Origin: Herbaspirillum frisingense
GTDB lineage: Bacteria; Pseudomonadota; Gammaproteobacteria; Burkholderiales; Burkholderiaceae_D
Length of the DNA: 33,505 nt
NCBI GenBank assembly: GCA_009914615.1
Contig: WNDX01000035.1
Span: 1-33,505 of the forward strand
Direction of reading: 5' to 3'
Part shown: positions 343 through 24,831 of the stretch, one piece after another
Layout of the letters: each line of letters begins with the position of its first letter
How positions within the stretch are numbered: the stretch's first letter is position 1
Program-made: the position numbers and the translations under genes
Notes under the pieces: model-generated
The model's database searches: none
Told to the model about the DNA's origin: nothing
The model's input: the letters and a program-made list of their open reading frames with translations, nothing else

Positions 343-418
343 TGGAGCGGGAGAAGAGTCTCGAACTCTCGACCTATACCTTGGCAAGGTATCGCTCTAC
401 CAACTGAGCTACTCCCGC
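343..418 (-). tRNA. tRNA-Gly (GCC), second copy
   Basis: A 76-nt cloverleaf. The acceptor stem GCGGGAG pairs with CTCCCGC, the D arm begins AGCTCAGTTGGTAGAGC, the anticodon is GCC in TTGCCAA, the T arm contains GTTCGAGAC, and TCCA is encoded at the 3' end. It is identical to the copy at 654-729. It lies 12 bases after tRNA-Cys and is probably co-transcribed with it. The gene decodes GGC/GGU glycine codons. Confidence 0.96.
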
Positions 419-430
419 AGGGAGTTTTTT

Positions 431-504
431 TGGAGGCGGGGGTCGGGATCGAACCGGCGTAGACGGCTTTGCAGGCCGCTGCATAACCACTTTGCTACCC
501 CGCC
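431..504 (-). tRNA. tRNA-Cys (GCA)
   Basis: A 74-nt cloverleaf. The acceptor stem GGCGGGG pairs with CCCCGCC, the anticodon is GCA in CTGCAAA, the T arm contains GGTTCGATCC, and TCCA is encoded at the 3' end. Position after uvrC-pgsA-tRNA-Gly matches the E. coli order uvrC-pgsA-glyW-cysT. Confidence 0.96.
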
Positions 505-516
505 TTGGGGACACGC

Positions 517-545
517 ATACTACCTAAAACGCGTGTTGTTTGCAA
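517..545 (-). promoter_or_regulatory. Putative sigma-70 promoter for tRNA-Cys/tRNA-Gly
   Basis: On the minus strand TTGCAA (540-545) and TAGTAT (517-522) are 17 bases apart. The -10 box ends 12 bases before the first tRNA-Cys base, so the transcript would start a few bases upstream of the mature 5' end. Each box matches consensus at 4 of 6 positions. A terminator-like hairpin at 612-643 separates this tRNA pair from the upstream tRNA-Gly, which makes a second promoter necessary. Confidence 0.5.
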
Positions 546-611
546 ACATCTTTCGACTGATCCAACCGGGGTTGCGACCACATCGTTGACGTGCGCGCGC
601 CTCATACAATA

Positions 612-643
612 AAAAAAGGAAGCTTTGTTAGGCTTCCTTTTTT
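612..643 (-). terminator. Hairpin terminator after the first tRNA-Gly
   Basis: A 12-bp stem: AAAAAAGGAAGC (612-623) pairs with GCTTCCTTTTTT (632-643) around an 8-base loop. It has a T run on either strand, so it could work in both directions. It starts 11 bases after the 3' end of the tRNA-Gly at 654 and would end the pgsA-tRNA-Gly transcript. Confidence 0.75.
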
Positions 644-653
644 CCAAGTAACC

Positions 654-729
654 TGGAGCGGGAGAAGAGTCTCGAACTCTCGACCTATACCTTGGCAAGG
701 TATCGCTCTACCAACTGAGCTACTCCCGC
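654..729 (-). tRNA. tRNA-Gly (GCC), first copy
   Basis: A 76-nt cloverleaf identical to the copy at 343-418, with anticodon GCC and encoded TCCA. It lies 69 bases after the stop codon of pgsA and is probably released from the uvrC-pgsA transcript by tRNA processing enzymes, as glyW is in E. coli. Confidence 0.96.
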
Positions 730-6679: not shown

Positions 6680-7609
6680 TCACTCGTAACCGTAGGCGCG
6701 CAGGCCGGCTTCGTTGTCGGCCCAGCCGGATTTGACCTTGACCCAGATCTCCAGATAGACCGGGCCGCCGAACAGGCGCTCCATGTCCAGCCGCGCCTGG
6801 GTCGAGATCTCCTTCAGGCGCGCGCCCTTCTGGCCGATCACCATGGCCTTGTGGGTATCGCGCTCGACCAGGATGGCGGCGAAGACGCGGCGCAGATTGC
6901 CTTCCTGTTCGAACTTCTCGATCAGCACGGTGCTGGTGTAGGGCAGCTCTTCGCCGACGAAGCGGAACACCTTCTCGCGCACGATTTCCGACGCCAGGAA
7001 TTTCTCGCTGCGATCGGTGATGTCGTCTTCGTCGAACATCGGCGGATTGTGCGGCAGCAGCTTGCGGACTTCTTCCTGCAGCGCATCGAGCTGGAAGCGC
7101 TGTTTGGCCGAGACCGGCACCACGGCGGCGAAATTATGCTGCGAGGCCACTTCGCGCGCGAAGGGCATCAACGTGGTCTTGTCCTTGTTGCGGTCCGCCT
7201 TGTTCAGCACCAGGATGCACGGCACGTTGGCCGGCAGCAGCTCCAGCACCTGCTTGTCGGCCGGGCCGAAGGTGCCGGCTTCGATCACGAACAGGATCAC
7301 GTCGGCCGCGGTCAGCGTATTGGTGACGGTGCGGTTGAGCGTCTTGTTCAGCGCATTGCTGTGGCGGGTCTGGAAGCCCGGGGTATCGACGTAGACGTAT
7401 TGCGTGTCGCCGATGGTCTGGATGCCGGTGATGCGGTGGCGCGTGGTCTGCGCCTTGCGCGAGGTGATGCTGACCTTGGCGCCGACCAGCACGTTCATCA
7501 GCGTCGATTTGCCGACGTTGGGACGGCCGACGATGGCGATGTAGCCGCAGCGATAGTCATCGCCCGGCTCTTGCGCCGGCGCACCGCCGGCCATTGGAGA
7601 ATCTGTCAT
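6680..7609 (-). CDS. era: GTPase Era
   Basis: Era is an essential GTPase that binds 16S rRNA near its 3' end and helps assemble the 30S subunit. The 309-residue protein has the G1 motif GRPNVGKS, switch region with TTRHRITG, G3 DTPG, and G4 NKAD, followed by the C-terminal KH domain, which includes the [12 protein letters not shown] loop. The short N-terminal tail before [11 protein letters not shown] is Pro/Ala rich. The start ATG overlaps the rnc stop by four bases (ATGA), so rnc and era are translationally coupled as in many proteobacteria. Confidence 0.97.
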
Positions 7610-23512: not shown

Positions 23513-24172
23513 ATGCCGCAAGACACTCTCCCGGCCCTCACTGCCACGCCTCGCCTGATCCTCGGCTCCAGTTCGGTTTACCGCAAGGAATTGCTTGGCC
23601 GCCTCGGCCTGCCCTTCGAGACCATGGCGCCGGACATCGACGAAACCCCGCTGCCCGGCGAAACGCCGGATGCCACCGCCCTGCGCCTGGCGCGCGAAAA
23701 GGCCGCGGCCATCGCCGCCAAGGCGGGGCCTGCACTGGTGATCGGCTCCGACCAGGTGGCCACGCTGGACGGCGCGCAGATCGGCAAACCCGGCAACCAC
23801 GCCAATGCCCTGAAGCAATTGCAGACCATGCGCGGCCGCGAAGTGATCTTCCATACCGCGCTGTGCCTGTGGGATAGCCGCCGCGCCGATGCCGCGGACG
23901 CGGCGCAGATCGCCAACGTGCAGACGCTGGTGCGCTTCCGCGATCTGCCCGATGTCGAACTGGATGCCTACCTGCGCATCGAACAGCCCTACGATTGCGC
24001 CGGCAGCGCCAAGAATGAAGGTCTGGGGATTGCCATCCTGCAAAGCATCCACAGCGACGATCCGACCGCACTCACCGGCCTGCCGCTGATCGCGCTGACC
24101 GGTATGCTGCGCCGTGCGGGCGTCGGCTTTTTCGGCCAGCCCGCCCTGAAGAACGCATCCGGATCTCAGTAA
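23513..24172 (+). CDS. Maf-family nucleotide pyrophosphatase (YceF type)
   Basis: Maf proteins hydrolyse non-canonical or methylated nucleoside triphosphates; the YceF subgroup prefers 7-methyl-GTP. The 219-residue product has the N-terminal LILGSSSVYRKELLGRLGLP motif with the SS-x-x-R core, PDIDETPLPGE, the catalytic Asp in VIGSDQVA, and SAKNEGLG near the C-terminus. The sequence VYRKELL fits YceF better than the dTTP/UTP-type YhdE. The start is ATG 23513-23515, giving MPQDTLPALTATPRLILGS; the open frame extends upstream without homology-like sequence. It diverges from yceD and overlaps the end of the convergent DUF1289 gene by seven bases. Confidence 0.9.
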   Translation: MPQDTLPALTATPRLILGSSSVYRKELLGRLGLPFETMAPDIDETPLPGETPDATALRLAREKAAAIAAKAGPALVIGSDQVATLDGAQIGKPGNHANALKQLQTMRGREVIFHTALCLWDSRRADAADAAQIANVQTLVRFRDLPDVELDAYLRIEQPYDCAGSAKNEGLGIAILQSIHSDDPTALTGLPLIALTGMLRRAGVGFFGQPALKNASGSQ

Positions 24173-24372
24173 TTGCGGCGCGGATAGCCCTGTGCCAGGA
24201 TGCGCTGCCACACCACTTCGCGTTCTTCCACGTTCATGAAGACCCATTGCGCCACCTCATCCACGGTGCGGCCGCAACCGCGGCAGACGTCGTCGAAGGT
24301 GGTGGAACATACGGCCACGCATGGCGTATCGGGCCGCTCGGGCAAAGGCTGGGACGATGGTGTCTGGGACAT
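24166..24372 (-). CDS. DUF1289 family protein
   Basis: A 68-residue protein with four cysteines arranged as in the DUF1289 family: PCVAVCSTTFDDVCRGCGRT, then EVAQWVFMNVEEREVVWQRI. The C-x3-C and C-x-x-C pairs could bind a metal or an iron-sulfur cluster, but no function is established to my knowledge. The start is ATG 24370-24372, giving MSQTPSSQPLPERP before the first cysteine. A longer frame upstream passes through a terminator and is rejected. Its stop overlaps the convergent maf stop by seven bases. Confidence 0.88.
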   Translation of the reverse strand: MSQTPSSQPLPERPDTPCVAVCSTTFDDVCRGCGRTVDEVAQWVFMNVEEREVVWQRILAQGYPRRNY

Positions 24373-24500
24373 TGAAGAATCTGAAAACGTCAGGCGGCGC
24401 CCGACATGGAAACGATGCCGCAGTCGCCATCTTACCAAGAAGCGGGAAGCTTCCGCCCATGCCGGCGACATGGCTAATCGGCAAGCCGGACCGAACGGGC

Positions 24501-24535
24501 AAAAAAAAAGCCCGCGACCAAGAGGTTGCGGGCTT
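24501..24535 (-). terminator. Strong intrinsic terminator with nine T residues
   Basis: GCCCGCAACC and GGTCGCGGGC (minus strand) form a 10-bp stem with one G-T pair and a 4- or 5-base loop, extended by two A-T pairs and followed by nine T (24501-24509). It would end the lipoprotein transcript or the candidate small RNA. A long U tail is typical of Hfq-bound small RNAs. Confidence 0.85.
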
Positions 24536-24574
24536 GAATCCAATTTCTTAAGGAGGAGATTGGAGGAGACAGGT
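24501..24574 (-). ncRNA. Candidate anti-Shine-Dalgarno small RNA
   Basis: In the 170 bases between the lipoprotein stop and the strong terminator, the minus strand holds a short structured unit. A -10 box TATAGT (24578-24583) would start a transcript of about 74 nt. It contains TCTCCTCC twice (24562-24569 and 24552-24559). The second copy lies in a 14-base loop closed by CCAAT (24559-24563) and ATTGG (24540-24544). The loop includes CCTCCTTA (24549-24556), the same string as the core of the 16S rRNA anti-Shine-Dalgarno tail. The intrinsic terminator with nine T follows. The layout resembles small RNAs with exposed CCUCC loops, including the toxic anti-SD RNAs I recall in Betaproteobacteria. 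Transcription is inferred, and the -35 box is weak. An alternative is an ordinary 3' untranslated region. Confidence 0.55.
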
Positions 24575-24577
24575 GCA

Positions 24578-24606
24578 ACTATAGTGATCCTCCACGGCTG
24601 AGTCTG
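24578..24606 (-). promoter_or_regulatory. Possible promoter of the candidate small RNA
   Basis: On the minus strand TATAGT (24578-24583) matches the -10 consensus at 5 of 6 positions. CAGACT (24601-24606), 17 bases upstream, matches the -35 only at its GAC core. The -10 box is convincing and the -35 box is weak, so an activator may be needed. Confidence 0.4.
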
Positions 24607-24627
24607 CTTTATTGTGGCAATAGCAGA
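24603..24627. other. Hairpin upstream of the candidate small RNA
   Basis: TCTGCT (24603-24608) pairs with AGCAGA (24622-24627), and inside it ATTG pairs with CAAT around TGG, with two unpaired bases. It lies in the 3' region of the lipoprotein transcript and may mark its processed end. Confidence 0.55.
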
Positions 24628-24705
24628 TATTCACCCACTCCATAACTCGCGCGACACAAGCCTTTCCGGGCAGACTTTCCGTTGCGCGCCATTCACGCAA
24701 TCCGA

Positions 24706-24831
24706 TCAGACCATCGCCGCCGGTCGCTCCAGCACCGAGGTGACCGGCTTGGGTGGATTGCCGCCCTTGCGTTCGCAAGCCTGCAGCAACAACGTCAGAG
24801 AAACGGCAACAGCCAGGGCGCTGATTTTCAT
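24706..24831 (-). CDS. Small putative lipoprotein, 41 residues
   Basis: A short gene with a strong ribosome-binding site (AGGAG six bases before the ATG at 24829-24831). The product begins MKISALAVAVSLTLLLQACE: one lysine, a hydrophobic core and a lipobox LQAC, so signal peptidase II would cleave before Cys19. The mature part is only 23 residues (CERKGGNPPKPVTSVLERPA plus three more), Pro-rich and without recognisable domain. Residue +2 is Glu rather than Asp, which suggests outer-membrane sorting. The function is unknown. It lies downstream of the HPP-CBS gene by 67 bases, which could place the two in one transcript. Confidence 0.75.
   Translation of the reverse strand: MKISALAVAVSLTLLLQACERKGGNPPKPVTSVLERPAAMV

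Follow-up and report, generated by a model that had tools for sequence, protein, structure and literature searches.

What is encoded by the intergenic interval at 24501–24606 of a 33,505-nt stretch of Herbaspirillum frisingense DNA (GCA_009914615.1, contig WNDX01000035.1; the whole stretch is called the window below), and what would switch it on? A preliminary description, made from the letters alone, had proposed a minus-strand small RNA (sRNA) whose loop copies the anti-Shine-Dalgarno (anti-SD) tail of 16S rRNA. We find here an RNA gene that is structured and conserved, with two sites complementary to Shine-Dalgarno (SD) sequences and a promoter box that it shares, at a fixed spacing, with sister copies. 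Our reading, to which we assign a probability of roughly 0.7, is that positions 24502–24571 (minus strand) specify an RF02278 sRNA that is predicted to block the SD sequences of several mRNAs through two UCUCCUCC sites, and that its upstream element is likely bound by a single LysR activator. Because the RF02278 family has been published, also from H. seropedicae, the RNA alone would be only a new member of a known family. The promoter element is the part that we did not find described; searches of the open-licence PubMed Central literature turned up neither the Herbaspirillum box nor this LysR as a regulator.

When the whole window was scanned with cmscan against 4227 Rfam families, RF02278 (Betaproteobacteria toxic sRNA) matched at 24571–24502 on the minus strand with 56.1 bits (E = 7.4e-9), above the gathering score of 50 bits, and the family that the preliminary description had named was thereby confirmed. 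Rfam includes the AbcR family; at this place the scan gave no family but RF02278, which argues against membership of AbcR. The architecture is also that of RF02278: a UGUCUCCUCC 5′ tail, a hairpin with a CU-rich loop, and a terminator hairpin with a U tract. The transcript is predicted to run from about 24572/24570 to 24501, a start placed from the spacing to a TATAGT −10 box (24583–24578, minus strand). TCTCCTCC occurs twice on the minus strand. The first copy (24569–24562) forms anti-SD site 1, UCUCCUCC, in the 5′ tail; the second (24559–24552) extends to TCTCCTCCTTAAG inside hairpin 1, and anti-SD site 2, UCUCCUCCUU, which reads TCTCCTCCTT over 24559–24550, lies in the hairpin loop. Hairpin 1 (24564–24539; UCCAAU/AUUGGA in RNA) has the arms TCCAAT at 24564–24559 and ATTGGA at 24544–24539. 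The terminator (24535–24501) is a GC-rich hairpin at 24535–24508 leading into nine T at 24509–24501. Thus the −10 box, the duplicated site with its hairpin, and the terminator are all present as first described. The fold of 24501–24574 contains both hairpins; its energy of −25.8 kcal/mol (z = −4.68) was matched by 1 of 200 shuffles. A simple sigma-70 and terminator scan of 24400–24700 detected neither a promoter nor a terminator, because there is no good −35 at this promoter and because its stem rule rejects the bulged stem seen in the fold. The 16S gene of the source genome ends ...GGATCACCTCCTTTCT; CCTCCTT is therefore common to the 16S tail and the RNA loop, and the claimed copy of the tail holds for CCTCCTT and fails beyond it.

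The gene sits at the same place in all nine Herbaspirillum genomes compared (source included), each of which keeps the loop, both stems and the TATAGT box; the spacer upstream is variable. A profile search of named plsX-region loci found the RNA in 10 of the best 80. The same 10, all named Herbaspirillum, have a DUF1289 gene adjoining the RNA and keep the loop and both stems, with TATAGT in nine and TAAAGT in L106. The profile, model R1, has five base pairs and no terminator and was used solely as a sequence profile. Neither the RNA nor DUF1289 was found in the other 70 loci, some of which end at contig ends; one of them is named Herbaspirillum (sp. ST 5-3, L116). The loop is 3 nt shorter, and still CTCCTTAAG, in G028, L099 and L100 (G028 and L100 are the same strain). 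Neither GTCTCCTC nor the GATT that follows hairpin 1 varies among 24 family members selected for alignment.

Stem 1 covaries. The count covers 30 distinct arm pairs from 163 of 183 sRNA strings; the other 20 strings were dropped because they repeat RNAs already included, read from site 2. Pairing holds in 90.6% of cells, and 38 of 180 show a change on each side; relatedness inflates counts of this kind, as the covariation method warns. Neither value was reached by any of 500 shuffles or by any of six slid versions. The earlier expectations that loop and stems persist where the flank is kept, and that the stems carry compensatory changes, were borne out, the latter for stem 1 across the family. 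The empty promoter and terminator scan would fit a CU-rich intergenic hairpin that arose by chance, or the remnant of a terminator; this reading is refuted by the family match above the gathering score, the synteny and the covariation, and we give it next to no credence. The observation is thus confirmed as more than chance, and its interpretation as an anti-SD sRNA is supported. A coding reading was also rejected: the orthologues are 66–71 nt long and differ in length by numbers not divisible by three, and nothing supports the short open reading frames (ORFs) that overlie the RNA, no dedicated coding test having been made.

The window copy has many relatives. Of 300 genomes searched in the order, 188 have an RF02278 match with an E-value no higher than 1e-3 (114 of them above the cut-off), as against 0 of 14 controls, which agrees with the Burkholderiales/Betaproteobacteria occurrence of the family. 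A further search gave a match in 50 of 61 genomes, and all 34 Herbaspirillum genomes in it (source included) hold 3–13 matches each. Nine are found in the source genome at E up to 1e-3, four of them above the cut-off. By flanking sequence, the 86 matches of the nine Herbaspirillum genomes fall into 16 groups, of which g0, g1, g2 (the window copy), g3 and g13 each occur in 9/9 genomes and g6 occurs as a pair in 9/9. The g11/g13 RNAs (L009, L079–L086, L088, L091–L093, L095–L097) are C-rich variants with CCCCTCC in place of TCTCCTCC; they score below the RF02278 cut-off, have a different upstream element (GTAAC...TTTGTAAAA or TGTTACAG.GTGTAAA) and may be a second sub-family under another regulator.

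What the sister copies share is an element ahead of the −10. The three free-standing copies g1, g2 and g3 have TAT-N11-ATAWCWGMTAT-N8-KAAA, which in the window reads TAT-N11-ATATCTGCTAT-N8-TAAAGCAGAC (24644–24602, minus strand) and resembles an activator site. The shared block stops roughly 31 nt short of the RNA and is followed by a variable spacer, a TATAGT or TAAAGT −10 that lacks a good −35 and, in most rows of the three groups, CACC-TGTCTCC. The core, ATAWCWGMTAT-N8-KAAA, also precedes two small ORFs ahead of the g6 RNAs in 9/9 genomes, near dnaA in the source genome. It gave 41 zero-mismatch matches in the nine genomes, all at the five sRNA loci from which the pattern had been derived. 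Four missing g3 sites were recovered at one mismatch; the other one-mismatch matches numbered 25, including five that are the g6b site on the opposite strand, and the reversed pattern gave 6. At two mismatches, one match lies away from the sRNA loci (C2:49733). A pair of intergenic one-mismatch matches on C47 led nowhere. At the dnaA-proximal locus (L244:4446–5877 on G000:C26, upstream of dnaA at 7162), the arrangement is a paired small ORF plus 3′ RF02278-like RNA. The two small ORFs had no Pfam or NCBIfam match and, judged by eye, end alike (LNRMA..QPN.AAELR). Contig-end ORFs at L243:8195–8446, L244:13984–14238 and L245:20–262 resemble, by eye, pieces of transposases, which are a likely cause of the assembly breaks in the source genome.

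We then have the question of whether the element has the same company outside the genus. The taxonomic family was searched at zero mismatches in 145 genomes, 137 of them outside Herbaspirillum; the core gave 59 exact matches in the 137, all of which were inspected, and the reversed pattern gave 9 in all 145. Twenty-four matches are followed by an RF02278-type GTCTCCTC RNA, at a distance of 58 nt in 12 cases and 59 nt in 12, and the RF02278 matches listed include at least 13 of these RNAs. Conservation in the 24 extends to a TAT 14 nt upstream and to the −10, though both lay outside the search pattern. Eight further matches precede a small ORF like that of g6. A divergent LysR gene was found at seven of these eight sites, and five have an sRNA-like string no more than 1.2 kb downstream; a ninth such site (L271) is cut by a contig end, and one match is the LysR side of one of these sites. 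Eleven matches, from other genera, precede DUF3563-type small ORFs (L258, L261, L263–L266, L334–L337, L340). Two of these ORFs were run against Pfam and both are PF12086; no mention of DUF3563 was found in the open-licence PubMed Central literature. Fourteen matches are left over, one of them (L328) directly ahead of a different LysR gene.

A second sample, picked by RF02278 score only, comprised 31 RNAs from 25 loci outside the genus; seven of the RNAs overlap the 24. The extended motif is present at 20 of the 31 RNAs with up to three mismatches and at 24 with up to four, always at 58–59 nt. The seven that lack it at four mismatches are six CCACCC-type RNAs (L277, L281, L282, L294, L295, L296) and L299. 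Five of the six CCACCC-type RNAs come from genomes without a LysR match (G360, G359, G361, G355, G348) and the sixth from a genome with a weaker one (G340). The extended motif is rare in other families of the order: among 28 RNAs in the loci that scored best in the order search, 1 has it at up to four mismatches.

Divergent to the first g6 unit is a gene for a LysR protein (HTH_1, LysR_substrate), and the motif lies between this gene and the g6 small-ORF/sRNA unit. The best NCBIfam matches of the protein, LeuO and BsrA, are far below the curated cut-offs (208 vs 480 and 160 vs 262 bits), so neither identity is assigned; in the PDB it matches the LysR-type regulatory protein 1uth best. A search for this LysR protein gave a match with an E-value no higher than 1e-60 in 122 of the 145 genomes of the taxonomic family; of the 23 counted as lacking it, three were assigned from their absence among the listed rows of the search. 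All 49 motif-bearing genomes carry LysR, and the motif occurs in 0 of the 23 LysR-less genomes (Fisher p = 5e-5). RF02278 matches number a median of 6 per genome with LysR (n = 122) and 1 without (n = 23); by genus, the medians are again 6 (31 genera with LysR) and 1 (10 genera without), three genera being mixed. One LysR genome holds no RF02278 match. We stress that the p-values are only a guide, because the genomes share ancestry. In the 200 nt ahead of LysR at the 30 best-scoring LysR loci, the motif was present at up to one mismatch in 8/8 Herbaspirillum loci (by construction) and in 15/22 others. The reversed pattern gave 0/30 (0/22 outside Herbaspirillum) and blocks of LysR coding sequence 0/120. 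The nine matches in the genome, the promoter element common to the sister copies and the LysR gene tied to it had all escaped the preliminary description.

The same data bear on a different assignment, in which some other common regulator binds the shared element and the LysR gene is merely another of its targets. Such a regulator would account for the distance between LysR and the window copy, which are not adjacent, for the LysR upstream regions outside Herbaspirillum that have no motif at one mismatch (7/22), and for the 11 DUF3563-type small ORFs, which have the motif and no LysR within about 1.3 kb (pattern search). We nevertheless think it unlikely. The motif sits in the divergent region between LysR and the small ORF, a layout that is usual for autoregulatory LysR regulators, and it is absent from every LysR-less genome.

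Several results weigh against our reading. Besides the 7/22 regions just mentioned, 73 of the 122 LysR genomes have no zero-mismatch motif, and 4 of the 23 LysR-less genomes hold 2–6 RF02278 matches. The motif accompanies only five of the nine RF02278 matches of the source genome, two of them solely via the small ORF ahead, and its fit to the Herbaspirillum source loci is by construction. In stem 1, two counts are unexceptional: the 4 pairs in which both sides change, a number reached by 249 of 500 shuffles, and the 13 further pair types, reached by 27 of 500. The mean duplex energy at the 32 gene starts of the window is no better than for shuffled RNA (−8.2 vs −8.6 kcal/mol). The case for LysR binding is drawn from position and co-occurrence, in related genomes that are not independent, and the expression, binding and targets of the window RNA are predictions from sequence.

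Which mRNAs would be affected? Many genes of the window had been suggested as targets, and this suggestion fared poorly. A perfect match of at least 6 nt lies near the start of 5 of the 32 window genes, as against 3.5% of random places, the genes having been called by our own start rule, with some starts surely wrong. The five encode a ketoacyl synthase, an acyl carrier protein, ribosomal protein L32, an MFS transporter and PhyH. Together with the duplex energies, target prediction within the window gives no clear signal. An alternative would be an RNA that mainly titrates SD sequences globally, toxin-like or lethal by dose, so that growth is arrested and no targets are chosen.

The 'toxic' label of the RF02278 RNAs reportedly stems from Kimelman et al. 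(2012). Toxicity in Escherichia coli gave the family its name (as cited in PMC4603805 and PMC5688073), and over-expression of ncS27 attenuates growth (PMC5688073). Against a toxin stand the complementary sites at or near the ribosome-binding site (RBS) in 70 of the 92 genes raised without S17 (PMC11722255), the substrate-dependent effect of ncS27 (reviewed in PMC10987360) and the several conserved single-copy paralogues, an odd way of keeping a toxin. S17 leaves exponential growth of E. coli unimpaired, with modest impairment on entry into stationary phase (PMC11722255). We therefore regard a toxin-like role as improbable and retain selective SD blocking as the reading.

How would the system work? 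LysR would bind the box, substitute for the missing −35 contact and activate transcription, which would start at about 24571. The RNA would then pair with SD sequences and occlude the RBS, a mode of action reported for S17 and also proposed for ncS27 (PMC11722255, PMC5688073), and the sister RNAs may sum to one dose-dependent brake on the translation of metabolic genes. The best reading of these features, by analogy, is a LysR-activated battery of anti-SD sRNAs that would work like the alphaproteobacterial VtlR–AbcR system. In VtlR/LsrB–AbcR, a LysR regulator directly activates the sRNA genes and a small-protein gene, a layout paralleled here; the circuit differs in RNA family, LysR neighbourhood and box (GCAT-N3-TG-N3-T), and a genome-wide search for the VtlR box gave one further place, as against five loci in Herbaspirillum (PMC7486931, PMC8844928). 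We consider it reasonably probable that the LysR protein, whose gene would lie next to the replication origin, switches on near-identical anti-SD RNAs, three free-standing and two in the tails of small-protein transcripts, via one dedicated box; that gene dosage sets a global brake on translation; and that, in Herbaspirillum and its taxonomic family, copies multiplied where the regulator exists. The system would then be the betaproteobacterial counterpart of VtlR–AbcR with a different RNA family, and would point to separate origins of LysR-driven anti-SD RNAs in alpha- and betaproteobacteria. Box and LysR together would explain why some genomes have many copies and others one, and they make the control of sRNA accumulation testable by one knockout in Herbaspirillum.

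Known relatives of the RNA fit this picture to differing degrees. The double-hairpin RNAs of Burkholderia cenocepacia (ncS03, ncS05, ncS27 or bdhR1, and ncS62; PMC5688073, with transcription starts in PMC4603805) resemble the window RNA in their two hairpins, CU-rich RBS-complementary sites and several homologues per genome, 3–5 in Burkholderia as against the 3–13 matches in Herbaspirillum. Three of the four have a common upstream motif, as the Herbaspirillum copies share a box; how their accumulation is regulated is called unknown in PMC5688073. RF02278 sRNAs are listed across Herbaspirillum (PMC6337395), and RNA-seq of H. seropedicae SmR1 reported four, Hsnc059, Hsnc063, Hsnc086 and Hsnc107 (PMC7011215). 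Their match lengths of 69, 68, 64 and 67 fit g2, g1, g0 and g3, respectively, which makes Hsnc059 the probable orthologue of the window copy. The excerpted text of PMC7011215 contains no promoter element, regulator or dnaA-proximal pair. S17 of Bordetella pertussis is similar in its 67-nt short form, C/U-rich 5′ region, RBS pairing and dependence on Hfq; it is cut by RNase E from a 190-nt precursor (PMC11722255), whereas the window copy has its −10 directly before the 5′ end. Paralogue g0 (L001 and other g0 loci) has no box. It has TTGC..YGCACAA about 50–65 nt before the RNA start, followed by TATATT, a layout that would be consistent with processing from a longer precursor, as for S17; our guess, comparing S17 by description, is that g0 is its nearest paralogue.

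The neighbours of the window RNA lie outside it and are as first described. Downstream is the DUF1289 gene (24166–24372, minus strand; PF06945); upstream is a lipoprotein-like ORF of 41 amino acids (24706–24831, minus strand), recognized from its sequence, with a start chosen inside the listed ORF and no match in a Pfam search. Neighbour function was dropped as a clue because the sister copies adjoin other genes. Elsewhere in the window, positions 346–729 (minus strand) hold three tRNA genes, two of which are identical in sequence and Rfam score.
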